In this document: positions 2,084-63,627 of the stretch, piece by piece | How the letters are laid out: every line of letters begins with the position of its first letter | Numbering within the stretch: position 1 is the first letter of the stretch | From: Hypericum androsaemum | Lineage: Eukaryota > Streptophyta > Magnoliopsida > Malpighiales > Hypericaceae | DNA length: 64,000 nucleotides | Assembly (NCBI GenBank): GCA_963995505.1 | Contig: OZ023192.1 | Coordinates: 11,205,001-11,269,000, forward strand | Direction: 5' to 3' | Program-made: the position numbers and the translations under genes | The notes under the pieces: generated by a model | Seen by the model: only the letters and a program-made list of their open reading frames with translations | The model's database searches: none | Told to the model about the DNA's origin: nothing

Positions 2084-2357
2084 GTTGTCGCACTTTGAGG
2101 GACCCCCGCCATCTCCACCCTTCTCAAAGCTGTTAATTCCGGCTAGTTACGGGTGTCGAGCATTCGTAAGTGGTGTAGAACTTCCCAGTCTTGCAACAAT
2201 CTGAGTCGTTTTCTTTGTTGCATTGCTCCGGAGGACCGGTCTTGCCCTTGATCCTACCACTGGGTTTGCAAGTGTCTGCCTCAACGGCTAAGCAAGTGAC
2301 CGATGCGATGATGAGGTGGCCAATGAGAATAACATTGGCGAAAACATACATGACCAT
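2084..2357 (-). pseudogene. Kiwellin / ripening-related protein, 5' part, frameshifted and cut by a retrotransposon
   Basis: Kiwellins are small secreted cysteine-rich plant proteins, some of which act in defence in the cell wall space. The minus-strand ATG at 2357 opens a signal peptide ([17 protein letters not shown]..), then [37 protein letters not shown] and TPVT, the typical kiwellin N-terminal half. The original frame stops at 2133-2135. A shifted frame continues with NSFEKGGDGGGPSKCDN, again kiwellin-like, so there is an indel near 2140-2150. The gene is then cut at 2083/2084 by the copia LTR. The C-terminal part would lie left of this window. A TATA box is present upstream. The ATG was chosen because the signal peptide begins there; the upstream extension of the open frame has no ATG. 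Confidence 0.85.
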
Positions 2358-2450
2358 TTTACTTGGCAACAATTCTTGGACTTGAACACTTTACTTGGGT
2401 GTTTAGAAGTGCTTGTGTAAGTTGTTATGCTGTGGAGAAGGTGATCTGAT

Positions 2451-2459
2451 GTTTATATA
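2451..2459 (-). promoter_or_regulatory. TATA box of the kiwellin gene
   Basis: The minus strand reads TATATAAAC about 94 bp upstream of the kiwellin ATG, a normal TATA-to-ATG distance for a plant gene. The promoter therefore looks preserved although the coding sequence is destroyed. Confidence 0.6.
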
Positions 2460-3490
2460 CAGAGCAAGGTATTGGAAGGTTACGTTTTAGGATTCAACTA
2501 ATTTGAGAACAAAACAATTGAGTGGTCATCTTCTATTGCTGTACAAGTTACGGTGTTTGAGATGATTTGTTAATAAATAACCCGGACAAATTAACTCTCC
2601 TTCGTTTATGGTAATCGAGACAAATTATTTTCTTCTTTTTCGTTAGAAGACGAATTAGTTTTAAATTCGAATGAGTAGATGTTTGTGACCCTGCCGCAAA
2701 TTTGTCCTTACTTGCGAGTTGCGACTAGCACATTCTAACTTAAGTTGTATTCCTTGGATACATAATCCACTTGTCATACTAGGGTGATCATTAATTGAAT
2801 TTAATTTGAATTTAATTTAATTTGATTTATAAAAAATTTGATTTGGATTCGAACTAGATTTTTATAAATCATAATTCGTATTTGAATTTTTCTTGGACGA
2901 ATCAAATTCCAATCTGAATTCATATATAACAAATTCGTCGATTTGTTGAATAATTCGTCAAATTATATATTAAAAATCTTAAAATTATAAGTTTAATTCA
3001 AAAAAAGGTGAAGGCCATTCCCGAAATTCAAAAATTCAGTGAAAACTGTGTGTGGTCGGGTCAATTGTCAAACATTGAATTTGTCCTTGGGCATAACAAT
3101 TCATGACCCCTTGTGCAATTGTCAATTGTCAATCTTCGAGCACTTGGCCTTGGGCCTGCGTTGGTGTCAAGTCCCGTCGGCTATTAACCTAAAAAGAATT
3201 GAATAAAAGAAATAAAAAAAGAAATCAAAATTTGGAGAAATTCAATTTAAATACGGCGGTTGATTCGTATTCATATTCGAATCAGCCCTAAAACAAATTG
3301 AATATGAATCATAATTTTGATAATTCAGCGATTATAATTCGAATTCGATTTAATTCGTGGTCAACTTTAGATAAGGAGATGATCACGAAACTATATAAAC
3401 CCTTAATATACTATATCAACTAATCTAGGTTCGACCGAGATTGGAAAATAAAAAGAAATCGTATTAATTTTATCAAATTTATCACATCTA
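2460..3490. other. AT-rich non-coding stretch, possible old MITE
   Basis: No coding sequence was recognised. Between about 2780 and 3370 many TTGAATTTAATTTGAATT-like words occur. The two edges (CTAGGGTGATCA... and the complement of ...GGTCAACTTTAG) are weakly inverted. No matching target duplication was found, so a degenerate MITE is only a possibility. Confidence 0.3.
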
Positions 3491-4540
3491 CGGGCTGATC
3501 CTACATATAAATTAGGGAAAATAACAGATAAGTATCTTGTAGTTTCACATTTTTACAATGGGTACGCTGTGATTTCAAATTGGTAATTTGGTCCTTGTGA
3601 TTTTCAAAAATAATTTCGCGTAAGTTCAGGGTAGCTACCCGCCCATATGGTCTTAGAACGATATCGTATTTGGTCCTACGTGGCTGATACGTGGGTGCCG
3701 AGTTGGATAAGTTACGGCTAACTTGTAATGTGACTAATTACATAAATAGTCCCCAATTTATTTATATTTTTGTGAAAAATCTACTATTTAAATACTATAA
3801 AAAATTTATTCTTCTCTCTCATCTCTACCTCTCCCCTTCCCTCTCTCCTCCCACCTTTCTCCCTCTCCTTCGACCCCATCTCTATCCTTCCCTCAATTAA
3901 CTTAAAACTTCCTCCTCACCTCCAACTCCAAGCAAAAAAAAAAAACAAAAAGAATGTATAAAACCCAGAAAAAAGAAGAAGAATTAACTTACCGGAATGA
4001 AGGATAGGCGATTACTCTTGTTGAGTTTCATCCTAAAAGGAAAAAGAGAGCTGTTTTGTTCAAAGACGTGGGGTATCGTCTTTGAAGGAGGAAAGGACAA
4101 ATCTTTCATGGAACATTAATAACGCCGGAGCTGATACGGTGTGGACAATGAAGATTAATCAACCGCCGGTTTGTCCCGCCAAGGTCATGTGGCTATTGAC
4201 AAATCATGGCCCATTAGCAGTTAATGTTGAATGTGGAATTCGTTGGTTCCAATATATCTTGCATTATACGTTGTCTTTGAGATATGTCAAGATACTTTCC
4301 AAAAAAAAAAAAATTAAGATATTTATTCGATTGATTTTTTGGAACAAAACTCACTTCACTACTAATGTGAAGAGTACGAAAGGTTGACATCAAGTTAGAA
4401 TTGAATGGTTTTCATGGGGATTCAAGGTTGCTGCTTTCATAGCAACGAGTTTGCTTGGACGCGGTGAGAAGGGGTAACTACCCCTATCCATGTCGTGCCG
4501 ATGTATTTTGGTCGCTGCGAGGAAAATTTTTTATTCCAAT
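3491..4540. other. Non-coding stretch with pyrimidine-rich tract
   Basis: Nothing recognisable is encoded. A CT-rich tract lies at about 3810-3895. The text near 3515-3720 resembles the end of a non-autonomous DNA transposon, but no second inverted end was found. Confidence 0.3.
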
Positions 4541-5015
4541 TTGGGTGCTTACCTTTGAATTTGGATTTAGGGGACTACATAAAAATCATCCCCATGGTAT
4601 GAACTAAATATGGATCTTTAGATTTGATCAAATTTTTTTTTACAGATCTGATGGCCAGAATCTGTTGAAGATATTTTCGAATTTTTATCCAAACATACTC
4701 ATTAGGGTTCCACGAGTTTCCTATATAATCCCACAAAAAAACCTTCCCCGTCGCCCTAAAACTAATACCAATTAAGAAAATAATTGAAAAATAAAATAAT
4801 ACTAACTAATTGCCCTAAAATTACGTTATTATACAATTATTAGATGTTTAAAAAATTAATATGCCACGATCCCTAACCAATTTTTTCTAGCATTCGTTTC
4901 AACCAAAAAATCTAATAACCCTAATCCAAAAATGACGTCGAAATCTAAGGAAAAAGAATTATTGTTTATTTTTCGTGGGTCTATGAAGAAAATTGTATCA
5001 TACTAATATGTTTTC

Positions 5016-5553
5016 GATATTAGTTTCTTTCTTATAGGATATCGGTTTTCTTCTTATATGATATCGGTTTTCTTCTTATATGATATTGGTTTTCCTTTCT
5101 CGGTAATATTGGTATCTGTCTAATATGATATTGGTTTTCTTCTAATCCGATATTGGTTTCTATCTTCTCTGATATTAGTTACCTACTTATTTGATATTGG
5201 TTTCCTTCTTCTACGATATTGGTTTATTGCTTTTATAATATTGGTTTATTGCTTCTATGATATTGGTTTCCTTCTTCTATGATATTGGTTTCTTTCTTAT
5301 ATGATATTAGTTTTCTTTGCTCAGTGATATTTGTATCCTTCTAATATGACACTGGTTTCCTTCTTTTCCGATATTGGTTTCCATCTTCTTCGTTATTGGT
5401 TACTTACTTCTACGATAATAATTTTCTTCTTATATAATATTAGTTTTCCTTGCTCGGTGATATTGGTATCCTTCTAATATGATATTAGTTTTCTTCTTTT
5501 TTTATATTAGTTTCCATCTTCTTCGACATTGGTTACCTACTTCTATGATATCT
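5016..5553 (+). repeat. 22-bp minisatellite with core GATATTGGTTT (array 1)
   Basis: About 24 units of 22 bp each consist of the core GATATTGGTTT (variants GATATCGG, GATATTAG, AATATTGG) plus roughly 11 variable CT-rich bases such as CCTTCTTCTAT. The variable parts recur in the same order every six units (about 132 bp), so it is a higher-order repeat. Arrays with the same core lie at 8334-8676 and 14219-15350. Confidence 0.9.
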
Positions 5554-5846
5554 TCAAAACCAATGCGATCAAATACACCAACTTAAGCACTAAACGTTTC
5601 AACAAAATCAATCACCATCGAATCGTTTATGACACAGTCGGTAAGAACATAGCCCATGACAACTCAAGACATCAAGATCATAGCTAGGGTTTTGCACAAA
5701 ATATGTAAGCAAATTAAATTAGGGTTTTGGATCCTAGTCGGACAAAAAAGACGTCTAAATTCATCCCCACTTCTGCTCCACTCCTACCAAATCCTAAAAC
5801 CCTAATAGACTCAGAATAAGTGCGGAGAAACCCTAACAGTGCAATC

Positions 5847-6008
5847 TATGATTGAGACCGTACTGGGGGATTCGAACATGAAGGTGACAGTGTAGGAGAT
5901 GTCGGCGGCCTTGATGGTAATGATATCGTCGTTGCCGATGCAGTGTACCTAGACGTTGGCGATGTTCATCCCGATGAAGAGGTTGCGGTCATAGCACAAA
6001 TGGAGAAG
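5847..6008 (-). pseudogene. Captured PCNA fragment
   Basis: The minus strand reads CYDRNLFIGMNIANV, then a stop, then [18 protein letters not shown] and [12 protein letters not shown]. This is the PCNA sliding-clamp segment that in plants reads [34 protein letters not shown] is the replication processivity clamp. The piece is about 50 codons of a roughly 264-residue protein, with one nonsense codon, and is enclosed by the TIRs of element 1. It is a captured fragment, not a gene. Confidence 0.8.
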
Positions 6009-6359
6009 GAAATAAAGATGAAGATTTCTGTGGAACACCAAAATAGTGAGAGAGAATTTGTTCCTTGAAGAAAATTCGATTATGGGAATGGTGGGGAAGA
6101 AATTTTTTTGACAGGAATGATGGGAGAGGAAATTACGGGAATGGTGGGGGAAGAGGAAGGAAACCTAGCTGTCAATTTTTAGGATGATATGGACTAAAAT
6201 ACCCTCTAAAGAATTTGGACCGTTAGATAATTTTTTTTTATTTTTATCAAATCTAAAGGCCCATATTTAGTACATACCATGGGGATGACTTTTATGTAGT
6301 CCCCTCTGAATCCAAATTCTTCGTGGTTATGGCTGGTTGACTATGAGTTGTTTATATTG

Positions 6360-7643
6360 TATTTTTTTCTGAATGGTGTTATTGTTCATAACTTTTTATC
6401 TACCCGGTGTTACAAAAAAAATTTCCTAGAAATAGTGTCCAAGTCGACATCCAAATTTTTTTTCCTTTCTCATACCAAGAAACCGGAGAAATCCCCGTTT
6501 CCATGTATAATTTTTTTGTTAGCATGAAACCACAAAAATTTCTGTTTCTTGGTTTAAAATGGTAAAACTTTCCTTATTATTTAGACACCCAAAAGTTGCA
6601 TAATAAATGCCACAAAAGGCTGGATAATATCAATGAAAAAAATGTGTATCGGGGGCTTAAATAGGGGAAGATAAAAAGGCAAATAATTAATATAATTTCT
6701 CTATTGTTTATTGAAATAAATTAGACTCATTAGTTAAGACTAACTAAATAATTAAGGCCTCATAAATTCACCGAAATAATTACGTCAGTTATAGGCTAAT
6801 TATATATTTTTTCCACTATCTCTAGTTTTTCTTTTGTTGAGCATAACGTCTTTTAAATTGAAATCTATAAAATGAAAAAGTATCCAAATTTCTCTTTAAT
6901 CGTATATCAATTTTTTTTGCCACCATAGATGCACCAATAGAAAAAATATATGCATGATCCAATATATTCAGTTTTTAAAATTTATACGCTTCCAAAAATT
7001 ATGACATACCCAAATAATTCATTATCTCTATTAAATTAGATTAATTTTTATTTTATTAGTCTAACTCTTGTTGCTTACTAATTCAGCAAAATAATTATGC
7101 TCTTTAGGCTAATTATACTTTTTTCATAACCTTTTTATTTTCCCTATTTAACCTTTTTGTGGCATTAATTACCCCCCCTTTTAGAGTGGCTAAATAAAGA
7201 GCCATTTTTTAAACAAAAAATGGCCATAACGACCAAAAATTGAAATCATGGGAGTAATTATAGAGAGAGGGTTTAGGAGGGAGTTGAATAACGATTATCC
7301 TTAAAAAGAGAGTTTAATACGAGGGAGTTGAATAACGATTATCCTTAAAAAGAGAGTTTAATACGAGGGAGTTGAATAGAAAAATCCTTGCATGTTCCCG
7401 GAGCGCTTCCTCCTTCAAGGGAGGGAATTTTTACCGTTTTAAACCAAGAAACGGAAATTTTTGTAATTTCTTGGTAATGGAAAAATTATATATGCCTTGA
7501 TAGAAATAGGAATTTTTCTTGGTATAAAAAACAGTCAAAAATTTTGGATGACCACGTGGACACTATTTTTGCGAAATTTTTTTTTGTAACACTGGGTAGA
7601 TAAATAGCCATGAATAGTAATATCATTCAGAAAAAAAAAATCC
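6360..7643. mobile_element. Non-autonomous TIR element (MULE-like), 1.28 kb
   Basis: The left end (ATTTTTTTCTGAATGGTGTT..., with TATCTACCCGGTGTTACAAA) and the complement of the right end match over about 200 bp, including an inner ACCAAGAAAC block. The flanks TTTATATTG (6351-6359) and TTTATATTT (7644-7652) form a 9-bp target duplication with one mismatch, as expected for Mutator-like elements. The interior is AT-rich and non-coding and contains a short tandem duplication. Confidence 0.75.
7271..7378 (+). repeat. Tandem repeat, about 46-bp unit, 2.4 copies
   Basis: The unit begins GAGGGAGTTGAATAACGATT and continues ATCCTTAAAAAGAGAGTTTA. It is repeated almost perfectly twice with a partial third copy, which points to a recent duplication inside the TIR element. 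Confidence 0.85.
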
Positions 7644-7652
7644 TTTATATTT

Positions 7653-8333
7653 TAGTTGTTACACGCTATACTCTTATTTGCAGGTTAACTTGAATATGGG
7701 TAACTTGAATATGGATGTCTCATCTAAGATCTGTATGCTACTATCTTCTTCTTTTTATTGTTTTCCTTTCTATTTTCTTTTGATTAATAAAGTTCTCTAA
7801 TTATTTATTAAAAAAAGTTAAAATTAAATGGTTAAAAACTTGAATTTTCTATAAGATTGTATGAAGTTCGAATACTTGGAACAAAAGATAATTGTTTCTT
7901 CAAATGGTTTGATAATGTTCTGATTTTAGATACAAGGATTTTGTTAAAATAAATAGAAAGTCATACCAGCCAGATTACAATACAAAAAAGTTTCATCCCG
8001 TATCACTGAATTTGGCTTTCTTCTTCGTTCTTTCTTCTTTCCACGTTATGTGCCCGGAAGTTAATTTTTATGGTGACCAGAATTTTAATTCTTATCACTC
8101 TCTATCCCATCTAACGGCTGTTCTCATATGGTAGATCAGCAAGACCAGTACTTGATAGACCCCATCCATACCGAAACCCATTCTTGACTAAAGCCGCATG
8201 CATTTGTTCTCCCGTAGTACTTTGAACCGGGTTTAAATTCAGTGGGGACATGGGTAATCCCCACTGAAAGGGACATGAACAATATTGAAAATACAATAAT
8301 TAAAAAAAATATCAGCAATAAATACAAGTATGG
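7653..8333. other. Unassigned stretch
   Basis: AT-rich to about 8100. From 8111 to 8327 the minus strand has two overlapping open frames of about 60 residues with no family I recognise. No RNA gene or repeat border was seen. Confidence 0.3.
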
Positions 8334-8676
8334 GAATATTGGTTTCCATTTTCTCGGATATTGGTTTTCATCTTCTATGCTATTGGTTTCATTCTACTAT
8401 GATATTGGTTTCCATCTTCTATGTTATTGGTTTCATTCTACCATGACATTGGTTTCATCCTACTATGATAATGGTTTCATTCCACCGTGATATTGGTTTT
8501 CATCTTCTCCAATATTGGTTTTCATCTTCTCCAATATTGGTATCCCATTATAAGTGAAAATATATATCATTTGAATGTATTGGTTTTGTTCTTCTCGAAT
8601 ATTGGTTTCATTCTTCTCGAATATTGGTATCATCGTTCTAGGATATTGGTATCATTCTACTTTAATATTGGTATCA
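8334..8676 (+). repeat. 22-bp minisatellite with core GATATTGGTTT (array 2)
   Basis: About 14 units share the core and period of array 1, but with spacers such as CATTCTACTAT and TCATCTTCTCC. One unit near 8545-8575 is interrupted by an AT-rich insertion. The period of 22 is not a multiple of three, so each reading frame cycles through repeated peptides; the open frames here are probably a by-product. Confidence 0.88.
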
Positions 8677-8843
8677 GAACCACATGAAGTCGACCAATCC
8701 AACAATAATCAAAAGTTGAAACAGCATATGGTTCATTTCTTTTGGATCAAATAATCAACGAAAAAGTGGTGGAAAAAACCAAAAAAAAGGACCCACATGA
8801 AATTGACCAATAAAGTTCCAATCTTCAAGAAAAACCCAAAAAA

Positions 8844-8846
<3 letters not shown>

Positions 8847-8884
<38 letters not shown>

Positions 8885-9245
8885 CGAGGGGTTGAGCGGC
8901 GGGTTTCCAATCTTCAAAAAAACCAAAAAAAATCAACGAATCAGGGGAGGGGGGTGAGCGGCGGGTTTTCAATCTTCAAAAAAACCAAAAAAGACCAGAT
9001 GCAGACAAGGATGATGAACGCTGGATTGGCTGCTCTTCTTGCTAATGGGGGGGGGGGGGGGGGGGGGGGGCAAGGGGTTGAGCGGCGGGTTTCCAATCTT
9101 CAAAAAAACCAAAAAAAATCAACGAATCAGGGGAGGGGGGTGAGCGGCGGGTTTTCAATCTTCAAAAAAACCAAAAAAGACCAGATGCAGACAAGGATGA
9201 TGAACGCTGGATTGGCAGCTCTTCTTGCTAATGGGGGGGGGGGGG
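8847..9245 (+). repeat. Tandem duplication of about 186 bp bounded by long G runs
   Basis: The segment starting GGGGTTGAGCGGCGGGTTTC occurs at about 8886 and again at about 9072, each time running to a G run. G runs lie at 8848-8884 (about 37 G), 9048-9070 and 9231-9244. Within each unit there are also two half-repeats (GAGCGGCGGGTTT..CAATCTTC). The runs are strong candidates for G-quadruplex formation and their exact lengths may be assembly-uncertain. Confidence 0.85.
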
Positions 9246-9487
9246 AGAGGGGATCGGGATCGGGATCGGGGTGGGGTGGGGGGCGATCGAGATCGGGGGT
9301 GGGAATTATATAGTGGAACCCTAATGAGTATGTTTGGATAAAAACTCGAAAATATCCTCAACAGATTCTGACCATTAGATCTGTAAAAAAAGAATTTGAT
9401 CAAATCTAAAGGTCCATATTTAGTCCATACCATGGGGATGATTTTTATGTAGTCTCCCCTGAATCCAAATCCCTTTGAACCCATAGA

Positions 9488-10650
9488 TGATAATCAATTA
9501 TTCGCAATGTAGTAACCAAAGTTGTAAAGGAGTAAATGACGTTGTATGAAAATAAACGAAATCAAGAACGTAAATAAACGAGTTGTGAATCAATAGAGAC
9601 AAGCGAGCACGATACCCCTATCGATTAACTACCTATGTTAAGATTTTTTTTCTATGAAGTTCTAACTAGTACCCGATGTGTTCTCCTAGAGGGTTATTTT
9701 CATGATATTAAGATGTCTCATTAATACCTAAGAATATGCTAACTAGTTTTTTCATCAACTCGAGTACCTTTCGGTCCACCCTGATCATAACCTAAGTGAT
9801 CAAGTTAGATTATACATTAAGCTCACCAATTAATAACTAATACGAAAGATATTCGAACTACAATCAACATAGGCTACCAATCACTTAGTAAGGGCATCAC
9901 ATTCACAAGAGAAATACTGGCTAAGCATGGCAAGAAAGCAAGATAGATTAATGAAGAACATGATAGAAATTAACATACAGGTAGAGATGGAGAAAGCTTA
10001 GTCGTGATGATCAAGCCTTGCCAATCTCCTTCCCGTAGCTAACTGGAATCATGCTCCTTTATTAATCAGAAAATAGTCTCAAGTTGCTAGAACAATGTCT
10101 CCAATAATAATAAAACCGAAGAGCTAATGGTCTATATATAGGCAAGAATCTAACTAAAAAATAGAAAAATCTAAAGAAGGTTAACCTAAACTAGAAGTCC
10201 TAATAGCTAATCACAAGAGGCCTAGAATAAGGAAAATAACTAAAATATAATGTTCTAGGGCCAAAACAGCAGACTCGAAGCAGTTGAATTTGAAATGGGT
10301 TTAAACTTGACAAAATAGGAAGCTGTAGAAAATTTGGAATCGGATATCGGGCGGCTGCCGTGTGCCTAGCGCCAGCCATGTTACTTATTCTGGCAGCCGC
10401 TGGAAGCCTGGCGCCTGCCGTGTCCTTCATGCTTCAGCCCAAATCTCCTCTTCATCCCATCCTCGCTCCATCTGCTCGCGAACCACTCCATTCACCTATC
10501 AAAACACACGAGAAGCAGTAGAAATCTACTCCAAAACTCGAACATATAAAAATGACAAATGATTCGATGGAATAATACGAGAATGAATGAAAACATGACA
10601 TACGACATACGAAATACACAACAAATATATGAGCGTTTATACACTCATCA
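9488..10650 (-). mobile_element. Probable solo LTR, Ty3/gypsy-like
   Basis: Read on the minus strand, the block starts TGATGAGTGTATAAACGC and ends GAATAATTGATTATCA, so it has TG...CA borders. It contains a CTATATATAG promoter-like word at about 10131-10140 and then a typical untranslated leader. The length of about 1.16 kb suits an LTR. There is no coding sequence and no clear 5-bp target duplication (ATAGA versus AAGAT), so the borders are tentative. Confidence 0.5.
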
Positions 10651-12480
10651 AAGATCAACTATGATACAACCTGGTTAGACTCTTCATCGAAATCAGGAAT
10701 AGTTACAGTTGCTAGAAACGTAAAAGGCCTTCTTTTACAAGGTCAGCAGAGATTAGTGCATTTTGCAACTAGCTCTACAAATGGCTCGGACAATTTTCAC
10801 ACAAGAAAGGGCGTTACTTGAAACATATAGCAGGAATTAATATGATTGTTTGATTCTTTCCGCATATCACTTGGCAGCTTGAACCATTTGTACTAGAAGT
10901 GAGGGAGAAACTTAAAATTTCCCCTTTTTGCAGCTTGTATGTATTAGTAGACTACAATATCAAGTAGTCGATTGGATTTGTAAAAATTGTAGACTAAGAT
11001 CTCTTCCTAAGAATTGGTCCGTAAACTATCCTACGGAACTTGATACGGATTTCCCTATCTAATATTATTATATGAAACATTTATCCCCTGAAAAAATAGT
11101 ATGGCCTTCATTTTTAGCTTCCAAAGCCGAGCTAGACTTCCTAAGAGAGAAGCGAGAGAGAGGATTTAAATTTACTCAAGCAACCATAGAAGAATCATGA
11201 CAACACTGCATTAACTTAGGGAAGAGAGAAGCCAGAGAAAGGTTGAAGGAGACATCCAAAAGCCAAACCGGGGTAGGAGGGTGAGAGGAGAGATGGTGAG
11301 TTTTTTGAAAAACTATAAATAAATGTGGTACCATAATTGTAAATATCACAAGCCATGTCATTAAAAATCTATCCCATGGAATGCCGATGTGACAATCCAT
11401 GTAACATACGAAGCTGTGTCGTTTCAACAAAAAAATCATGGGCAGTTGCCCGGGCTACCTGGACCTCTCGCTGATGAAAACTAAAATAAGTTGGATGTGT
11501 TCTATGCGTTTTAAACTATAGGGTAGTTAAGTGCGAATTTGTGATACTACATTCACTAAAATGTACTTTTTCCAACAATTTATAAGGTTGACTTGTCTCT
11601 ATCGGTGACCAACATTGTTAAGGCGTCACGCCACAATCTATGTATAATATCAGCGTGGTCCATCCATGCGTGCATATCTTCACTACGAATATAGTTCTTC
11701 TTAACCTTAATATTATCAACCATATATTATTTTCTAATGATGGGTTATAGGGAGTTCCTAACTTCGTTCCTGTCCATCTAGATACAATTAATTAGAAATT
11801 TGTTTGAGATTAACATATACTTCCTTACGAGTGAGATGAATTTTTTTATAAGTGTAAAATATTTACTCATGGTATGAAAGTTCTAACATAGTACTAGAGT
11901 AGGTTGATTCCGTGACTTTATTCCTTTTAACAAGTAAATATTTGTTTATTCAAAAAATAAACGCAAAAAGAGCTAGTAATTAGATTTGCTATTGTTACAT
12001 TTGTGCTTGAGAATACATATCTCCTAAATAATCAATAACTAATAACCTATCTAAAAAGCAACACTAATTAGATAGTGACTATTTTAAAATTAATTCATCA
12101 ATATCTTCCATGATAATCTTTCATTTTATCCTAATCGTCTAGTTAATTCGTATGAAGCAAATTTTTCGAGCGAACCAAGCTTCCCGTTGAATTTGTTTAT
12201 TTGCATCTCGATATCTTCCATAAGGATCCCGTGAACTATTGTTGCTCCTTCAAATCTGAAGATCTAATATAGTAAGTCGACTTATTACTCCACGAGAAAT
12301 TGAACCTTGATTTCCGTCAATTTTATACGTTTCGTGTCATCCAGATAAGTGTGACAAAAGTTTACATACACTTAGAAAGAAGAAAAAAGGGAAACGGGAA
12401 CAGTGACAACTCCTGATTGAGAAGGATGATATACCCGGGACCATAGAACCATGAATAGGAAAGGTAGCATCTACAGTACA
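10651..12480. other. No gene recognised
   Basis: AT-rich sequence with scattered short frames. The longest (11176-11439, minus, 87 codons) shows no known domain. A stretch at about 10975-11060 resembles 24428-24520 (TGTAGACTAA...AAGAATTGG), suggesting an old shared segment near two MIR399 loci. Confidence 0.35.
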
Positions 12481-12530
12481 CATGCTTGGTTCTCTTTTTT
12501 CATTGAATCTTTCCAATCGGAATTGTACTG

Positions 12531-12538
12531 GCATATCC
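12531..12538 (+). promoter_or_regulatory. P1BS-type PHR1 site 1 of MIR399 locus 1
   Basis: GCATATCC fits the consensus GNATATNC bound by PHR1-family regulators of phosphate starvation. It lies 54 bp upstream of the TATA box. Confidence 0.65.
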
Positions 12539-12553
12539 CATTCCTTTGTCTTG

Positions 12554-12561
12554 GCATATCC
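12554..12561 (+). promoter_or_regulatory. P1BS-type PHR1 site 2 of MIR399 locus 1
   Basis: A second GCATATCC lies 23 bp after the first and 24 bp before the TATA box. Two sites this close to a TATA box are unlikely by chance and match the known regulation of miR399 by PHR1. Confidence 0.65.
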
Positions 12562-12584
12562 GGTCTCGGGTGCGAATAACGCAG

Positions 12585-12592
12585 TATAAAAG
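12585..12592 (+). promoter_or_regulatory. TATA box of MIR399 locus 1
   Basis: TATAAAAG lies about 160 bp upstream of the hairpin on the same strand as the mature sequence and just downstream of the two P1BS sites. Confidence 0.65.
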
Positions 12593-12743
12593 GGTGACTG
12601 TTTCTTGCATGGAGGACGACGAGAGGAACAGTACGAATGGAGGTGGTGATGGAGAAGGAAGAGAGAGAGATAAGAGAGGAGAAAGTTACATTAGCATACT
12701 TTTTGTGATGGATGTGGAGGAGTTGATCCAAGTGTGACGTGGG

Positions 12744-12862
12744 ATGAGGAATAACAGAGCAAATCTCCTTTGGCAGAGCGAATTTTACATACCGCTAATG
12801 CGTGCGTGTATATGTTGATTCTGCTTTGCCAAAGGAGAATTGCCCTGCCATTCTCTCCCATA
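12744..12862 (+). ncRNA. MIR399: miR399 precursor, locus 1
   Basis: A hairpin whose 3' arm carries the mature sequence at 12827-12847 (starts TGCCAAAGGAGAATTGCC, then CTG) and whose 5' arm carries the star strand at 12757-12777 (starts GAGCAAATCTCCTTTGGC). The arms pair with essentially one internal mismatch in the duplex, and the loop is about 49 nt. miR399 is induced by phosphate starvation and directs cleavage of PHO2 (UBC24) mRNA. Two P1BS sites and a TATA box lie upstream on the same strand. The minus strand also gives a near-miR399 3' arm, because the duplex is almost palindromic, but the promoter supports plus. Confidence 0.88.
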
Positions 12863-13500
12863 ACAAAGTTTAGTGAATTTCCTAAGCCAATCGGTTTGAT
12901 GTGTGCCCGGAATAAGGTGATTGTAAAAAGGCTACGCGTAAAGTGCAATGCCAAAGCAGTTATATTCAGTTTCTTGCATAAAATTAGTCTTGTTATTTTG
13001 TTGGTGAATATTCACTTTCGTGCGCTTGACATCTGATGAATATCCAATTTTGCATTACAGACATCCCACACATTTTATCTCTGTAGCAGAATCAATATTT
13101 TCTCCACAATTTACTTCGCACCGATTTCACTTTTGTATGCGGTTTTATGTTTTGTATCTATATCGATTTTTTTAAAGATTAAAAGCAGATTACAAGGGAT
13201 AGCATAAACGCTAAAGACAACATCAAGACCCGACTTAGATAATTGTAGATTGCTACATATATCATAATCGCAAAATAAGATAGTTGGATATGGGTAGTAT
13301 TGGCGAGAGACTCAGCTTTGAAAGCCTAGTCCATTTTCACGTCGGAAATACCACCCAAAAAACTGATGAGCACATGATCAACTAAAGCTCTCCTTTCGGC
13401 TACAAGCGAACCAAGAAGTCTCCAAATAAATAAATCATATGAAATATGACTTGATGGAGATATTCTTATCCAAAATACTTCGAACTAGATAGATACAACA
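12863..13500. other. Region 3' of MIR399 locus 1, no gene recognised
   Basis: AT-rich sequence. The first part is probably the 3' portion of the primary miR399 transcript. No domain or repeat was recognised. Confidence 0.35.
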
Positions 13501-14218
13501 TCTTGTTTTGCAAAAAGATACAAAACAGCAAGCAATATAAAAAAAATCGATCCAGAACTGGCTACCACAGAAGATACAAACCATTAAGAATATCAAAGAT
13601 TCAAGCCTGCCAAACCCAGTACACTACGGAGTCTGGCAAGCAAAACCCTAGCGAGCTGCAATTGAGGGTAGTTCACAACGAGCTGTGGTTGAAGAGAGAG
13701 CGGCCCTCGGCAGGCTACTGCTGTTGGCTGGTGAGCTAGAGCGGCGAGCGGCTTGAACTCCATACGACAAGCGGCCCCGGACGGTATGGAGAATCCTCGG
13801 ACGGCTGGAGGAAGGGAATAACCAGCCACTTAGGACTGGTTTGGTGTCAGGAATGGTTTCTTTCCCAAGAGAGAATTGGCCCCTTATCTATATAGTTTGC
13901 AATCCATTATCCCGGGAGGAGATTGGACGGAGACAAGGGTAGTCCCCAAATTTAGGGACTAAAGGAAAGATTGTGACAATTTAGGTATTAATTAAGTAGT
14001 TAAGGGTAAAATTGGAAAATTAATAAAAATAAAAAGAGAGATAGCAAATTAGCTGGCACACTTTTTTATGGAAATACTAAAAGGTAAAAAAAATTTAAAC
14101 CAATCTCACGTGAAAAGAAGAAGGGACTCTTTCTCTCTCTTTAAATTATTGTGAACTTCAAAAATCCTACCAACTACCAGATTTTTTTAAATAAACTCGA
14201 AAAACCAAAGAATAAAAA
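13501..14218. other. Unassigned; GC-rich block at 13600-13840
   Basis: Open frames exist on both strands in the GC-rich block (78 codons each) without any recognised family. The minus strand has a CTATATAG word near 13888-13896, followed by a leader-like sequence, so this may be a promoter plus first exon captured or left from a gene. From about 13930 on the sequence is AT-rich and probably belongs to the left part of element 3. Confidence 0.3.
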
Positions 14219-15350
14219 TTCAATAGAAAATCAATATCACTAAATTCGAAAACTAATATTACTACGTTCGGAAACCAATATCACTGCGTTCGGAAACCAA
14301 TATCACTACTTTCAAAAACCAATATCACTACATTCACAAACTAATATCACTACCTTCAGAAACCAATATCACTATATTCGAAACCAATATTACTATGTTC
14401 GGAAAACCAATATCACTACGTTCGGAAACCAATATCACGATGTTTGGAAACCAATATCACCACATTCGAAAATCAATATCACCACATTCGAAAACTAATA
14501 TATCACCACGTTCGAAAACCAAGATCACTACGTTCGAAAACTAATATCATTATAGACTAGAACCAATAGCATTACTTACTCAAACCAATATTATTACAGA
14601 CTCAAATCAATATTAGTACATACTCAAACCAATATCATTACAGACTAAAACTAATATCATTAAAGACTAAAACTAATATCAATACATACTCAAACCAATA
14701 TCAGTACAGACTAAAATCAATGTCATTAGAGACTAAAACCAATATCAATACATACGCAAACCAATATCAGTACAGACTAAAATCAACATCAATACAAACT
14801 TAAACCAATATCAATACATACTCGAACCAATATCATTACAGACAAAAACCAATATCATTACATACTCAAACCAAACAAAAGAGGTCTCCAAAATCAATAT
14901 CACCACATTTGAAAATCAATATCACTACATTCGAAAACTAATATCACTATAGTAAAAAACCAATGTCAATACATTCGGAAACCAATATCGATACATTCGA
15001 AAACCAATATCGATGCAGACTAAAACTAACATACTAAAACTAATATCAATACAAACTCAAACCAATATCATTACATATGAAAACCAATATCACTACATAT
15101 GAAAATTAATATCAGTACAGACTAAAACTAATGTCATTACGTACTCAAACCAATATCAATACATACTCAAATTAATATTATTAGCAATTGAAATCAATAA
15201 CAGTACAGAGTAAAACTAATATCAGTATAGACCAAAACCAATATCAGTATATACTCAAACCAATATCATTATATCTAAAAATTAATATTAATACATACTC
15301 AAACCAATATCATTAGCGACTGAAACCAATATCATACAGACTAAAATCAA
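14219..15350 (-). repeat. 22-bp minisatellite with core GATATTGGTTT (array 3), largest copy
   Basis: On the plus strand the unit reads AAACCAATATC plus about 11 variable bases (ACTACGTTCGG, ATTACATACTC, AGTACAGACTA). About 1.1 kb gives close to 50 units. Spacer types cluster: TTCGG types on the left and ACATACTC/ACAGACTA types on the right, suggesting several rounds of local expansion. Relative to the captured gene the array reads GATATTGGTTT. Confidence 0.9.
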
Positions 15351-15582
15351 GCCGAGTACTCGAGGAAACCCTAGAGGAGCTCGATCTCATCCTCGTCAGT
15401 CCACAGCCACTGGAACAGCAGCCGCATCTCGTCCAACAGGAGGGGCTTCCGGTCGAGCTGCAGCGGAGAGGGGAGGACGATCGCGTCGTAGGAGGTGGGG
15501 CGGAGGTCTTCCTCGTCGTCATCATCGTCCATAATCTCGGGATCGTCCTCGAGGTGGGGTAGAGGTCTTCTAGCACCGCCAT
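15347..15582 (-). pseudogene. Captured STOREKEEPER/GeBP-like transcription factor fragment
   Basis: From an ATG at 15582 the minus strand encodes an acidic N-terminus. After a frame shift it reads LEDDPEIMDDDDDEEDLRP, TSYDAIVLPSPLQLDRKPLL and FQWLWTDEDEIELL, a stop at 15371-15373, then GFLEYSA. The W..EDEI.LL.G...Y pattern fits the start of the DUF573 DNA-binding domain of STOREKEEPER/GeBP proteins, where the stop replaces a usual Gln codon. The domain ends abruptly at the array. A sister copy starts at 63889. The family call rests on this one motif. Confidence 0.6.
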
Positions 15583-15640
15583 CTCCTCTCTCTCCTACTA
15601 TTTCACCGATTGGGACTTCTTCTTCTACTTGTACTACTCG

Positions 15641-15668
15641 TTGAGAGAGAGAGAGAGAGAGAGAGAGA
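15641..15668 (+). repeat. (GA)n microsatellite
   Basis: About 14 GA units lie upstream (minus sense) of the captured STOREKEEPER-like ATG, where the sister copy near 63850 has a shorter CT-rich leader. Confidence 0.85.
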
Positions 15669-15965
15669 TTTCTCTTTTATGGGAAGAAAAGAGAGATTTC
15701 TTTTGTTTCAAGAAGAAGAGGCGGCCACGATTTTTTTTATAGAAAATTTAGGAGATAAAAAAGTTTAAATAGATGGGGTGGAAACCCTAGTTGGTATGGG
15801 ATGGGTAAAAAGTCAAAAGTATCCTTGATAGATTAATGGCCCTTGGATTTGCAGATACTGTTTTAAAATCAAATCTGACGGCCTATATTTAACTCCCCAC
15901 CTATGGACAACATTTCTTTAATCCCCACTCAATCCATTCTCCCATTATCCCTAGCGGGTTAATAT

Positions 15966-31673: not shown

Positions 31674-32835
31674 ATTTCTTCCTCTCGGGCGTTCACTTTT
31701 CTTGGGTTGCTTGTGATTTAATGGTTTCTATGATTTGGTATGGATTTTATTTGTTATGCATATATCATTTTCTGGTTTTTTTTTTAGTTTATATTTTGGG
31801 TTTGAGGATTGGATTGGAAACAGTTTTAGGTTTTGGACTAATTGGTGGTATGTTTTAGATTGGATTAGATTATATGGTTTTGGACTAAACAGTTTTATGT
31901 TTTAGATTGGAGTAAACCATTTTAGGTTTTGGAGTAAACAGGTTTAGTTTTTGATTGGAATCGGAACATTTTTAGGTTTTGGTCTTTTAGGTTCTAGTTT
32001 TTGTTGGAGTTTATGTTTTGGATTGGATTCGAGTGTTCTTACTGTGAGTGTTCTTACAGGCGTATTAAGTTTGACCATTTTATCATTACACTCAAACAAT
32101 TTCATGAAACCCATCGAACCATTATATCAGTGGTTCTCATTTTGTTTTTTCAGAGCATAGTAGACAATTATGTCTATTCTTTGGTTGACCTCTTTTCCTT
32201 GTTTGGTGTGTAGATGGAAAGGAGTCAAAAGTCTTGCGCGAGGCCTAGTTACATGAGGCTTACTGAGAGGAGGAGGAGGAGGCAGCAGCAGTGGAGTCAA
32301 AGATGGAGACGAATTGCATGTCGACGGTGGGCGGCACGTGATGGTCTTTGCCCGTGGACATGATCGGCGATCTCAGTGTTTGAATTGGGTTGTGGAGTTG
32401 GGATGGAATGGACCAATTGGAGGAGACTGGGAGGTCGTGGTGTTCCACCTTCTTCGAGCAGCGACGATGATGCGATGGGCTCAATGGCGGGAGGTCGGCT
32501 TCCCTCTTCTCTGGGCAAGACGCCGACGAAGCGGGCAGGTTAGTAGTCGAACGAAGGAAGCTGCGACATATTTTTGTATCCTTTGGGGAGGGTTTCAATG
32601 GCGGGGAATGGTAGTTCTGCGATGTCTATGTTTGTTTGGTGGCTAGAGACGTGGTCGGCGACAGAGTTGGCGTTGTCATGACCATTGTTGTTTGTGTGAT
32701 TTTTGTGATTTTACGAAGTTGTCCGGAGACATAGTCGGCGACGGAGTTGGCCTTGGATGGGGTCGTGACCATTGTTGTTTCATGATTTTGGAATTTTTTG
32801 TGTTTCTCTGATTTTGGAATTTGGTTTTCATGATC
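31674..32835. other. Unassigned; TTTTGGA-type repeats, then GC-richer stretch with open frames
   Basis: 31690-32000 repeats words such as TTTTAGATTGGA and GGTTTTGGA and looks intron-like. An ATG at 32214 after TTTGGTGTGTAG (a possible splice acceptor) opens an Arg/Gln-rich frame of about 50 codons. The minus strand has a 112-codon frame (32260-32598). Neither matches a family I know. GTCGGCGAC(A/G)GAGTTGGC is repeated at about 32654 and 32732. Confidence 0.3.
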
Positions 32836-33375
32836 AAATAGTTTATCCAGTTATATTAAATAGTTTACCCGATTATATCAAATGGTATATCCGGTTATAT
32901 CAAATAGTTTACTCGGTTATATCAAACAGTTTACTCGGTTATCTCAAATAGTTTATCCAGCTATATCAAATGATATGTCGTATTAAATAATTAATTTGAT
33001 AATATTAGTTGTGATTGTTTTAGATAAATTTAGTCGAACATATATCCAATCGGTTTACCAGGTTATATCAAATAGTTTATCCGGCTATATCAAATGGTTT
33101 ACTCGATTATATAAAATAGCTTACCCGGTTATATCAAATAGTTTACTCGATTATATCAAATGGTTTACCCAGTTATATCAAATGGTATGTCGTGTTAAAT
33201 AATTAGTTTGATAATATTAATTGTAATTTTTTATATGAATTTAGTCGAACATATATTCAAATTATTTATCCGATTATATTAAATAGTTTATTCGATTATA
33301 TCAAATGGTATAGTTAATTATATCAAATGATATAGCTGATTATATCCAATGGTCCACCCAATTATATCAAATAGT
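32836..33375 (+). repeat. AT-rich minisatellite (TATATCAAATAGTTTACCCGGT-type unit)
   Basis: About two dozen units of 20-22 bp with the core TATATCAAATAGTTTA and variable ends (CCCGGT, CTCGAT, TCCGGC). A longer interruption containing GTTAAATAATTA(A/G)TTTGATAATATTA and TTTAGTCGAACATATAT appears twice (about 32970-33050 and 33190-33265), so a larger unit was duplicated. It is unrelated to the GATATTGGTTT arrays. Confidence 0.85.
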
Positions 33376-33644
33376 ATACCAATTTGATAATATTTAAAAT
33401 TATTCATTACAAAAATTAAACAATTATAATAATAATAAAAAATGTGTAAGCCCTTTTTTTGGGGAAAAAATGCGTCAGTGTCTTTTTCGGAAAAAAAAAT
33501 GTGTCAGCCCTTTTTCTCTTTCCAATGCATGCGTCAACCCCTTTTTCAAGTTACTATACTGCCCCTGGTCACATAACTCTAGGTCTGTTGTGAGTATAGC
33601 TTTCCCCAAATAAACAGCTCAAGAGACTACTCTCACCGAGAGCG
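33376..33644. other. Short repeats of an ATGTGTCAGCCC type
   Basis: Three or four irregular units (AAATGTGTAAGCCCTTTTT, AAAATGCGTCAGTGTCTTTTT, AAATGTGTCAGCCCTTTTT, ATGCGTCAACCCCTTTTT). No gene. Confidence 0.45.
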
Positions 33645-33810
33645 AATTGAGTGAGAACTAAAGAAAATTTGTCTATAGGTGGGGATTACATTTTGGCCCG
33701 TCAGATTTGATTATCTTTAAATTTGATGGTCAATAACCTATCAGGTGATATTGGTTTGCATGTGTAATGATATTGGTTTGAGTTAGTCCCCATGGAAACT
33801 ACTCTCTCAC
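33645..33810 (+). mobile_element. Deleted remnant of a TIR type-B element with two array units
   Basis: The left part (TTGAGTGAGAACTAAAGAAA, then TTTGTCTATAGGTGGGGA, then CAGATTTGATTATC) matches TIR type B of 15836-15965 and 63628. Immediately after it come two 22-bp units with GATATTGGTTT. The captured gene and most of the array are missing. The part after 33785 (GAGTTAGTCCCC) may be the opposite end. Confidence 0.65.
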
Positions 33811-40166: not shown

Positions 40167-40171
40167 TTAAT

Positions 40172-41138
40172 TATTCGAACAAATATTAGTAAATTATGGT
40201 ATGAGCATGTAAATATTAATCGTATGCATATAAAGAGAGGAGTTTAGAGAATGCTCACGATCACAATTGGAGCCAAGTGTGTAAACCGTCATCTTCAAGG
40301 TAGTGACTTTTGGATTGAATCCTGGACGAGGGCACACTTTAACCGTGTGCCCTTAAACTCTTATTACCCGCCTATATGCTTCAGGCCTCCATGGGTAAGA
40401 GAGTTCCCAAGGTACAATGCCCAATCACGTGTACAAAAGGAAGTACTTTCGTACACCTTGTGAACCTTTAGTAGCCTTAGAACTTCGACACTTATGTAAA
40501 TGAGAAATGCTATGCAAGGGGGAGAGAAGTAGAGAGCTCAAAGAAGAGTGTGAGCTAGGGGGTGATTTGGAATGAAGGAGGAGGCCTCTTTTTATAGGGG
40601 CCTTGGACCTCCAACATTCAAAACTAAATTTAATAGGGCCATTAACCCACCCATTGAATGAGATGTTACAAAACCCATAAAACCTCAAATTAAATGGGTT
40701 GTTACATTCATGAATTTAAATCCAAAATTTAAATTCAAATGGCATGGAAGGGGAAGAAGGTTCTAGAGCGCGGGCTTTTCCAGGTGGAAGCCCAATAGAT
40801 TTTAAGCTGAGAATCGCTTCAACAGGTCCGGCCCAGCTCTAAAAAGATAAGGCCATGGAACCTGGAACAATTCTCACAAACTCACAATCTCACAACCCGC
40901 AGCCATCCTACCTTTAAGCCAATTTTTTATTCACCCCGAGAATTGAATTTTTGCAAGTGTTATATATCGTTACGAAGCTTTATCAATGAGCTTCATATTG
41001 ATCTCACAAACACCCAAAGTCAATTGGAGTGTATTTAATTAGGATTCTTCCTCTAATTAAATATTTGGGCCCAATGCCCAATACACTCACTTGTATTGGG
41101 CCATCTCTTCCTAGGGTATTAAACTCAATTCTCCAATA
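40172..41138 (-). repeat. 3' LTR of copia-3
   Basis: 967 bp. Its plus-strand ends are TATTCGAACAAATATTAG and CTCCAATA, against TGTTGGAAGAAATATTAG and CTCCAACA in the other LTR, so both terminal TG/CA motifs have mutated. The tract CATGTGGGGAAT (minus) follows. Confidence 0.88.
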
Positions 41139-45470: not shown

Positions 45471-46688
45471 ATAATAACTTGGGCCCAACACCCACAAATA
45501 ATACTCAACACTCAATTTCACAAAATTGATCTTAATTCAGAAGGGGGAAAATTTTCCTTTTATTTATCATAAATCGGAACCACGTTCCTGCCAAAATTTG
45601 TGTTGCTGTTGTTGCCACGTTTTTTAAACTTGCATAAACAGCCACCACACTAATTTAGTCCTATGAACACTACTTAACTTCCATAGAAAAAATTAACTCA
45701 TATTTTATGCTCCATCAAGACAATATGAACATATCAATTAACGCATGATGTGCATATAAATGCTCTGTCTCTACATGAAACCATAATTATGAATTAGCTG
45801 CACACAAATTTTCCCTTAGAAAGTATAAGGATTAGGCTCACTAATTATTATAGCATTCACAGACAGCGTTCACAACACTGCTTACAATAACCAATAGTAA
45901 CCAAACGGTCAATACCAGTCCACAGAACTTTTCTGCTAGTACACCACTCACCACTCAAAAATAATAACTAATAAATAATAATTATGTACATATTACCGAG
46001 CCATTAACAGCTCCATAAAGTAGCTGACACCTTTCAAAAACTCTTCCGCAACTAAACGGAAAACTGCAACACTATGACAATATTCCACGAAATGAATAAG
46101 CCCAAAAATATTTTTGAGAACCGTAACAGCTGAGATTATAAAGCTGTTTTAATTACACAATCTGTAATCTATTGGTTTTATATTATTTTATCGATCATGC
46201 ACAGTAGATGAAACAAACACACTTTCAAATATCACAATAATTTTTAAGCATTCACTTAACTGCAGAAGTAATGAAATAATATTTAATTAGTCGTTAGTTA
46301 GCATTTGAGCACATGAAACCTCAGACTGTAAAAACGTATTACAAAACTTCTAGCGACTTTAATAGGTTACGTATTTAATCGGAAACCCATTAATAGTATG
46401 GACAGAAGCAAAATTCAATCGTGAAATAATTAATTGTTAAAAAACTATTATTTTGGTGAACTTTTTATTCCTTCACAGAAACACTCACGCAGCAACCTCC
46501 AATATATACTGTCTCATCATTTTTTTCACTACAAATCCCTTTTAACAGTTTTCCTTTTGTTTTTACAGAAGGTAGTGATCAGTTCGAAACCGAATATAAA
46601 GATTTATGTTATATGTCACAGAAGGTTTCGAACAACAGTGATTAACAAACCGGTATACTAATATTTCAAATTCCTAAGAGTTTAAGAT
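45471..46688. other. Non-coding leader or insertion next to the copia-3 5' LTR
   Basis: AT-rich with no coding signal. The sequence directly inside the 5' LTR (minus ATCTTAAACTCTTAGG) is not a tRNA-Met primer site, so the original leader may have been replaced or has decayed. Confidence 0.4.
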
Positions 46689-47927
46689 TGTTGGAAGAAA
46701 TATTAGTAAATTATGGTATGAGCATGTAAATATTAATCATAAGCATATAAAGAGAGGAGTTTAGAGAATGCTCACGATCACATTTGGAGTCAAGTGTGTA
46801 AACCGTCGTCTTCAAGGTAGTGACTTTCGGATTGAATCCTGGACGAGGCCACAGTTTAATCGTGTGCCCTTAAACTCTTATTACCCGCCTATATGTTTCA
46901 GGCCTCCATTGGTAAGAGAGTTCCCAAGGTACAACGTCCAATCACGTGTACAAAAGGAAGCACTTTCGTACACCTTGCGAACCTTTAGTAACCTTAGAAC
47001 TCCGACACTTATGCAAATAAGAAATGTTATGCAAGGGGGAGAGAAGTAGAGAGCTCAAGGAAGAGTGTGAGCTATGGGGTAATTTGGAATGAAGGAGGAG
47101 GCCTCTTTTTGCCTTGGACCTCCAATATTCAAAACTAAATTTAATAGGGCCATTAACCCACCCATTGAATGAGATGTTACAAAACCCATAAAATTCCAAA
47201 TTAAATGGGTTGTTACACTTATGAATTTAAATTCAAAATTTAAATTCAAATAGCATAGAAGGGAAAGAAGGTTCTAGAGCGCGGGCTTTTTCAGGAGGAA
47301 GTCCAATAGATTTTGGGGGAGAAGTAGAGAGCTCAAGGAAGAGTGTGAGCTATGGGGTAATTTGGAATGAAGGAGGAGGCCTCTTTTTGCCTTGGACCTC
47401 CAACATTCAAAACTAAATTTAATAGGGCCATTAACCCACGCATTGAATGAGATGTTACAAAACCCATAAAACTCTAAATTAAATGGGTTGTTACACTTAT
47501 GAATTTAAATTCAAAATTTAAATTCAAATGGCATAGAAGGGAAAGAAGGTTCTAGAGCGCGGGCTTTTCCAGGAGGAAGTCCAATAGATTTTGGGCCAAG
47601 AATCGCTTCAACAGGTCCGGCCCAGCTCTAAAAAGATAAGGCCATGGAACCTGGAACAATTCTCACAAACCCACAATCTCGCAACCCCCAGCCATCCCAC
47701 CTTTAAGTCAATTTTTTATTTACCCCGAGAATTAAATTTTTGCAAGTGTTATATATCGTTACGAAACTTTATCAACAAGCTTCATATTGATCTCACAAAC
47801 ACCCAAATCTAATTGGAGTGTATTTAATTAGAATTCTTCCTCTAATTAAATATTTGGGCCCGGTGCCCAATACACTCACTTGTATTGGGTCATCTCTTCC
47901 TAGAGTATTAAACCCAATTCTCCAACA
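46689..47927 (-). repeat. 5' LTR of copia-3, enlarged by an internal duplication
   Basis: 1,239 bp against 967 bp for the 3' LTR. The excess is one tandem duplication of about 270 bp: the block GAGAAGTAGAGAGCTCAAGG ... AGGAGGAAGTCCAATAGATT occurs at about 47040-47312 and again at 47318-47588. Confidence 0.88.
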
Positions 47928-56461: not shown

Positions 56462-56470
56462 ATTTTTATT

Positions 56471-57766: not shown

Positions 57767-57775
57767 ATTTTTATT

Positions 57776-59882: not shown

Positions 59883-60162
59883 AGACAAATTACCCTCACG
59901 TCCCTGTACTTTGGTCACCCTCCCCCTAGGGTCCCTGGATTTTGGAAAAAGATTGTCCCGTCCCTAAGTTTTGATGATAATAGACTCCCGGGTCCCTGGA
60001 GTCGGAATATTCTCTTTTCTCCGGTAAACCCCCACTTGAAATGACCAAAATGCCCCTCTCACTTGAAAAAACAAAAAAATTCCTCTCTCCCCTTTCACCT
60101 TCTCCCCAATTCATCTTCAATCTCCAAACAAAAAATTTAAATAAAAATAAAAACTTAACAAA

Positions 60163-60292
60163 CAACACAGGCGGTGCACTTTAGGGCCTCGAGGGTGCCC
60201 TCCTCGCCGTCGGGCATGAACTCGCCGCACCCGTCGTAGATATTTCCCCTAACGCTCACCGCGTGGTTCCTACGAAGTACCTCTCGTAGGCC
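60163..60292 (-). pseudogene. Captured ZF-HD (zinc-finger homeodomain / MIF) fragment
   Basis: Minus strand: [18 protein letters not shown], then [25 protein letters not shown]. This is the ZF-HD dimerisation domain (YRECLRNHA...[21 protein letters not shown]), about 40 of 55 residues. The start is shifted by an indel near 60285 and the domain ends at Cys-Val-Val before the final CxxH. ZF-HD proteins are plant transcription factors. The upstream open text (to about 60440) with a His-rich piece may be the N-terminus of the same gene. Confidence 0.82.
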
Positions 60293-60441
60293 CTCATCGA
60301 GGAGGAGCGGTAGTGGTGGTGGTCTAGGGCTTGGGTGTAGGTCAGGAGAGCGGTGGTGGACACTGGAGTTTTGGAGCCATTATGATGGTTGTCGGTGCCG
60401 AAGACCCCTGACGAGAGGAACAAGGCTGTAGCTAGACCTGT

Positions 60442-63620: not shown

Positions 63621-63627
63621 GAATAGA

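Follow-up and report, generated by a model that had tools for sequence, protein, structure and literature searches.

The 64,000-nucleotide stretch of Hypericum androsaemum DNA analysed here (assembly GCA_963995505.1, contig OZ023192.1, positions 11,205,001 to 11,269,000 of the forward strand; hereafter the window, whose own numbering is used for its features) harbors a group of transposable elements with terminal inverted repeats (TIRs) that carry tandem arrays of an 11-bp core (word 1). Tandem Repeats Finder (TRF) placed arrays with a 22-bp period at 5016-5551, 8336-8676 and 14226-15350, and two isolated array units start at 33747 and 33769, confirming the three arrays and the two units near 33745 described by an earlier model reading of the letters alone (the sequence-only reading). 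The core, with at most one mismatch, was matched 69 times in the window, against a mean of 2.68 and a maximum of 7 in 100 dinucleotide shuffles, a comparison which that reading had proposed.

Five elements were delimited. Element E1 (4557-6321, plus strand, ends at 4559-6321) is bounded at either extremity by a type A end and contains an array of about 24 units of the word GATATTGGTTT (5016-5553, plus strand, 22-bp period) and, on the minus strand, a captured PCNA fragment interrupted by stops (5811-5988), which matched PCNA_N (E 1.5e-4, 5814-5948) and PCNA chains in the PDB (best E 4e-9). A scan of its flanks for a target site duplication (TSD) found none, the best pair having 3 mismatches. 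Element E2 (8229-9472, plus strand) consists of a short left end, an array with a 22-bp period (8335-8676, plus strand) and a type A right end, the left one being the short partner end of this long type, and is flanked by an exact 9-bp TSD, CTTTGAACC, at 8220 and 9473. A single composite element from 4559 to 9470, whose outer flanks match at 8 of 9 bases, was considered and rejected, since E2 has its own exact TSD and its pair of ends was met again at 8 of the 20 array loci sampled from contig 1. A third TIR element, with arms of about 215 bp (77%) and flanks matching at 8/9, lies between E1 and E2 (6362-7637), and inside E2 a stretch of 186 bp rich in long runs of G is tandemly duplicated (98%, 8861-9252).

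Element E3 (13914-15942, minus strand) comprises a short left end, an array with the core on the minus strand (14226-15350, 22-bp period), a captured fragment (15374-15676, minus strand) and a type B right end, with an exact TSD, CATTATCCC, at 13905 and 15943. Mini-element E4, about 165 bp long (33635-33803, plus strand), joins a B-type left end to two array units, and its TSD has two exact readings, ACTACTCTC (33626/33798) or CTCTCACCG (33630/33804). Element E5 enters the window with its left part, a B end and a captured fragment (63619-64000, plus strand), and extends beyond it to about 65387, with 33 cores. The coding-like fragments of E3 and E5 are copies of each other (89.5% over 200 bp); their GeBP-like label is weak, the E5 copy matching PF04504 at E 0.066 (14.4 bits, below the cut-off of 29.5) and the E3 copy giving no Pfam match. 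Of the host exons which the sequence-only reading took to be captured, PCNA can hence be retained, and STOREKEEPER/GeBP remains a weak assignment. Likewise, type A and B TIRs do stand beside the arrays as it had claimed, but the array at 8336 belongs to a separate element, E2, with a short left end. Inside the window no match to the transposase or the Ulp1 gene of the family described below was found (best E 0.77).

Copies of each end type resemble one another closely, type A at 93.7% (4559-4713 vs. 9313-9470) and 89.7% (4557-4632 vs. 6242-6319), and type B at 91.4% (15756-15941 vs. 63619-63804). The two types also align with each other, at 70.9% over 134 columns (E 1e-6) and, with the B end of E5, at 67% over 150 (E 6e-13), which rules out the view, entertained in the sequence-only reading as a way in which it might fail, that A and B are unrelated TIRs; judged from these alignments they are homologous and belong to one family. 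Related inverted ends are present in the window elements and at the contig-1 loci, and most elements are asymmetric, with one long and one short end. TSDs were scored for E1-E4 together with the 20 contig-1 loci, the ends being free to slide 7 bp in elements and control alike and the right ends of mini-elements being set longer on the basis of a sequence box. A 9-bp TSD was exact in 9 of these 24 elements and had one mismatch in 8, two in 4, three in 1 and four in 2, while only 1.5% of 552 left/right pairs from different elements reached one mismatch or fewer. Duplications of 9 bp are typical of Mutator elements. With the 9-bp TSDs, the TIRs and a transposase bearing a MULE domain, the array carriers are Mutator-like elements (MULEs), and the PCNA fragment of E1, itself without TSD, is a host gene fragment between MULE ends as in Pack-MULEs.

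Across the 385-Mb assembly (29 contigs), exact core pairs at 22-bp spacing numbered 10,126 (5,017 + 5,109), the reversed control giving none. The array loci examined were the first 20, in list order, of 29 clusters on contig 1, clustered by eye from the listed places, each of which, by the way they were chosen, includes one exact core pair or more. Ends of the window types were found at all 20, and the outcome that the sequence-only reading named as contrary to it, arrays lying mostly outside TIR elements, did not occur among them. Besides the eight loci with the E2 arrangement (short end, array, A end), five had that of E3 (B end, array, short end), five were mini-elements like E4, in one (L024) an A end and a 44-bp part of the left end of E2 accompany two arrays that diverge, and the last was a large gene-bearing copy (L025). 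The number of units varied from 2 to dozens. At 19 of the 20 loci no coding match to the transposase or Ulp1 was found at 1e-5 within 10 kb, the array being nonetheless present. L024 is perhaps a recombinant form; at 4676-5391 its arrays run on the minus and then on the plus strand, and its flanks carry an exact 9-bp repeat, CCTATCCCT.

Neighbouring units within the arrays agree at 0.887 in the core and at 0.619 in the spacer (69 blocks, 438 units), with neighbouring cores spaced mostly by 22 bp (n = 267), then by 44 (n = 40), 21 (n = 8) and 23 bp (n = 6). Because blocks and units were located through the core (at most one mismatch), this comparison is biased in its favour, and the agreement of all 24 locus-and-strand sets in one core consensus is likewise partly a matter of construction. 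The evidence against such an origin of the conservation comes from the mirror test alone, in which units found by their spacer (n = 199) had cores 0.823 identical to the common core, and units found by their core (n = 423) had spacers 0.655 identical to the consensus of their own set. Spacer consensuses of different sets agreed at 52% on average. Three sets performed poorly in the mirror test (gene-bearing copy, 0.69 on the plus and 0.40 on the minus strand; window, 0.54 on the plus strand), perhaps because spacers of low complexity were matched by chance. Cores are conserved and spacers drift, and the proposal of the sequence-only reading, of an array maintained as the hallmark of one TIR family through changes of TIRs and cargo, holds, the spacers having changed as well.

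A copy with a transposase, such as that reading suggested looking for, exists in the gene-bearing copy (L025 with L029), 11.7 kb long with an exact TSD, CCTTTTCAA. Its left end is B-type (78% over 74, E 4e-13) and aligns also with A (63.5% over 137, E 9e-7), and its right end is of the type of the E3 left end (70% over 145, E 1e-14). One strand holds three open stretches that probably make up one Ulp1-type gene, the third encoding an Ulp1 C48 peptidase (PF02902, E 3.5e-12) in which H, D, Q and C, which we take to be the catalytic residues, align with yeast Ulp1. Convergent to it lies a predicted transposase with FAR1 (PF03101, E 1.7e-16), MULE (PF10551, E 3.9e-18) and SWIM (PF04434, E 6.5e-6) domains in separate open stretches. 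With FAR1 N-terminal and SWIM C-terminal, the transposase is by its domains a putative member of the Jittery/FAR1 type, and its linkage to a C48 peptidase gene is that of Ulp1-bearing, KIU-like MULEs. Arrays occur between and around the coding stretches, at about 2.1-12.5 kb of the 14.9 kb fetched, and are mostly internal. The Ulp1 strand has 54 cores with at most one mismatch (53 at 2135-7953 and one at 9103), the transposase strand 41 (8089-12454); word 1 is therefore, with hardly an exception, oriented here like the gene it accompanies.

Both genes recur in the genome. The transposase exon gave at least 144 matches, in tiers near 94, 84, 70 and 55-59% identity, and the Ulp1 exon at least 150, both lists being lower bounds (142 of 288 transposase and 150 of 246 Ulp1 candidates scored). 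Among the matches listed, 109 of the 144 transposase matches had an Ulp1 match within 8 kb, in all 109 cases convergent and downstream, whereas shifting the positions 20 times yielded 0.5 such pairs on average and never more than 3; match positions were transferred by hand for this pairing and for the neighbour checks of the other words described below. Median identities of transposase and Ulp1 per tier were 93/91, 83/62, 69/69 and 56/35 (the last for the tier of 50-60% transposase identity), so that Ulp1 shows the greater divergence in two tiers. When the Ulp1 exon was used as query against proteins, none of the 19 candidates reached E 0.001.

The stretch upstream of the transposase was taken for 16 of the 144 loci, chosen by identity tier before the flanks were seen. 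The six loci at 70-94% identity carry word 1, with 115 sense and 0 antisense cores, few of them in L034 (6) and L035 (4), while the ten loci at 47-59% had no sense word-1 core there. Three of these ten (L037, L038 and L046, 59%) have instead a second word, TGATAATGGCAC, with a 23-bp period (21 sense, 0 antisense), and three (L040, L041 and L042, 56-57%) a third, GAATGGTTYGT, also at 23 bp and in the sense orientation only; L044 and L045 (47-49%) show relatives of word 3 at 23 bp. L039 (58%) is marginal, with one window at z 4.9 and 4 word-3 relatives, and L043 (56%) has distal arrays of 22 and 23 bp, largely antisense. Within the word-2 and word-3 groups the arrays occupy the interval from the FAR1 to the MULE exon match and appear again immediately upstream of FAR1. 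The three word groups formed three clades with 99-100% support in a tree built on the FAR1 exon (16 rows; L039, with less than 100 aa, omitted), where L043, L044 and L045 grouped with word 3. Since related transposase lineages bear different words with a 23-bp period, the hallmark cannot be reduced to a single sequence; the array does mark one TIR family, as the sequence-only reading had it, and arrays of other words extend beyond it. With periods of 22 and 23 bp, strict helical phasing is ruled out, and the weight that reading gave to 22 bp as two helical turns is much reduced.

Genome-wide, exact pairs of word 2 occurred 22 times at 12 loci and those of word 3 33 times at 23 loci, both reversed controls giving none. 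Each of the 12 word-2 loci has a transposase match (54-59%) no more than 4 kb away and on the same strand. Of the 23 word-3 loci, 14 neighbour a transposase match (49-57%) and share its strand, 6 have an Ulp1 match only and 3 neither, a class that may be overstated because only part of the transposase and Ulp1 candidates was scored; Ulp1 matches of at most 42% identity were used in this neighbour check. The window itself contains, at 32833-33380 on the plus strand, a second 22-bp array with a different word, ATCAAATRGTTTACC, in an unbounded element; this array, of TATATCAAATRGTTTACC type, resembles the distal arrays of L043.

A kept word with drifting spacers, its retention in gene-free copies and its replacement in sister lineages by another word of closely similar period are what a protein-binding array changing together with its reader would look like. 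We give an even chance to the reading that, in MULEs combining a FAR1-type transposase with a convergent Ulp1 gene, the arrays serve as cis-acting address tags, bound by a protein of the element, most plausibly the Ulp1-type one, that would lift silencing from the lineage. Each unit would then be an 11-12-bp recognition word set on a 22- or 23-bp ruler, and an element protein, most likely the Ulp1-type product, would bind dense arrays of its own word. Binding would free this one lineage, and no other, from host silencing, much as VANC acts on VANDAL elements, a step from binding to loss of silencing that is drawn from analogy only. Gene-free and gene-capturing copies would retain the word, allowing activation or mobilisation in trans, and when a lineage splits, word and reader would change together. 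That the reader is probably encoded by the element follows from the words tracking element clades, and the Ulp1-type protein is preferred because the arrays are internal, intronic and upstream, by analogy with VANC. A broader proposal, that a FAR1/Ulp1 branch of MULEs separate from VANDAL runs its own anti-silencing code, with a lineage-specific 11-12-bp word, a 22-23-bp ruler and a fast-changing Ulp1 reader by which many gene-free and gene-capturing copies survive, is put forward tentatively, as somewhat improbable in its entirety.

Against the preferred form of the address-tag reading stands the possibility that the transposase is itself the reader. In this serious rival, which we consider unlikely but still worth about one chance in four, the core would be the target of the FAR1-type transposase, and copies without genes would retain it so as to be mobilised, in the manner of the TnpA sites of Spm or the MURA sites of Mu; the FAR1 domain is a DNA-binding one, the words follow transposase clades, and small gene-free copies retain little more than ends and a few units. 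The arrays of the gene-bearing copy, however, are mostly internal, between coding stretches and not at both ends, and those of words 2 and 3 fill the intron between FAR1 and MULE. The Ulp1-type reader also meets difficulties of its own. Exons 1 and 2 of the Ulp1 gene had no Pfam match and in particular none to DUF1985 or DUF287, a search that a distant relative could escape, and Ulp1 does not evolve faster in every tier, being level with the transposase in the 69% one. Arrays in distant Ulp1 genes have a 23-bp period, but in L048 they consist of word 3 antisense to Ulp1, and in L047 (2507-2658) the unit, ATTGTGACTTAACAGATCATGCC, in the Ulp1 gene of the lineage that bears word 2, does not clearly correspond to that word, so that the rule seen in the word-1 copy, of arrays in the sense of each gene, is not general. 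L035, L039 and L043 give weak or irregular pictures. Hardly any gene-free copy with word 2 or 3 was found, so that cis use in trans is seen for word 1 only.

Two further explanations dispense with an element-encoded reader. The arrays might be promoter or intron enhancers bound by a host factor and serving element expression only, and their position, in introns and directly before the first transposase exon match, with the orientation of the gene, would suit this. Sister lineages with different words in a single genome would nevertheless require different host factors, and word 1 is retained by gene-free copies; we hold this explanation improbable. Still less probable, and indeed doubtful in our opinion, is that the arrays are functionless minisatellites spread with the elements and homogenised by slippage. 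Unit numbers from 2 to dozens and a location in non-coding stretches are as expected of minisatellites, but slippage homogenises whole units, whereas core and spacer differ, the mirror test included; the single orientation and the similar period with other words in sister clades also speak against it.

If the address-tag reading is true, escape from silencing through tandem words would recur in the FAR1-type branch of MULEs, beyond VANDAL, and one genome would offer three sets of word and protein at graded divergence, with many natural target arrays varying in units and spacer. Recognition of its own family by a transposon protein, the joint change of reader and word and the role of the Ulp1 domain in plant transposons would become testable. 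For annotation, word arrays serve to locate and sort gene-free and Pack-type copies with decayed ends.

The window holds other repeats. At 59884-61319, inverted repeats of 172 bp (93.6%) surround a RING-finger coding fragment, presumably KEG-like, with no clear TSD, likely a Pack-type element of another TIR family. Ends like these form inverted repeats of about 185 bp at 56470-57767, where an exact 9-bp flank repeat, ATTTTTATT, is of low complexity. A stretch at 40170-41136 is duplicated at 46687-47925 (93%), the second copy including a 278-bp tandem duplication.

The literature searched, which left subscription papers mostly outside its coverage, contained no report of word arrays in FAR1-type MULEs; by title, nothing on the 11-mer concerned transposons, and no Mutator literature on 22-bp tandem repeats was found. 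Anti-silencing of Ulp1 type through periodic words is not, for all that, new as an idea, given the 2022 work of Sasaki and colleagues, which is said to report a helical periodicity and to treat eudicots at large. The sites of TnpA and MURA are terminal or subterminal, unlike the arrays described here, which are largely internal. The likeness to these proteins would reside in the trans action on copies of the element proposed here, known, in the sections available, for TnpA of Spm and for MURA on MuDR, with lowered methylation (PMC10398659). With Pack-MULEs the elements share captured host fragments between MULE ends (PCNA in E1, the common fragment in E3 and E5), and they differ from them in carrying the array too.

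An Ulp1-type gene downstream of the transposase, also in opposite orientation, is shared with KAONASHI/KIU and Jittery-like MULEs (accessible parts of PMC2528002 and PMC13317346), and Jittery-like MULEs with ULP are known in grapevine (PMC2528002, same extract); within those parts no word arrays were found described for Jittery-like MULEs, which sets the present elements apart. A review of 2026, in the portion at hand, states with reference to Sasaki et al. (2022) that Ulp1-bearing VANC genes recognise their own motifs (PMC13317346). The closest parallel is VANDAL, in which VANC motifs form family-specific tandem arrays of one orientation in introns and upstream regions, and VANA is far more conserved than VANC (Hosaka et al., 2017; PMC5735166, in excerpt). 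The sequence-only reading knew of no described plant family defined by such an array; tandem motif arrays bound by VANC in VANDAL qualify this (same excerpt), the idea being not wholly undescribed and the present arrays probably belonging to another MULE branch. Dense, short tandem motifs in non-coding sequence, all of the same orientation, in introns and upstream of the transposase gene are common to both systems (PMC5735166 and PMC10398659, as far as their available text extends), as are a motif that varies between families and a transposase more conserved than its partner (PMC5735166, likewise). Formal membership in VANDAL/VANC fails because the Pfam scan of the three coding stretches gives Peptidase_C48 only: unlike VANC, the partner has an Ulp1 domain and no Pfam match to DUF1985 or DUF287, and unlike VANDAL, the elements have a transposase with an N-terminal FAR1 domain, recognisable TIR ends and an anti-silencing function that is here putative.

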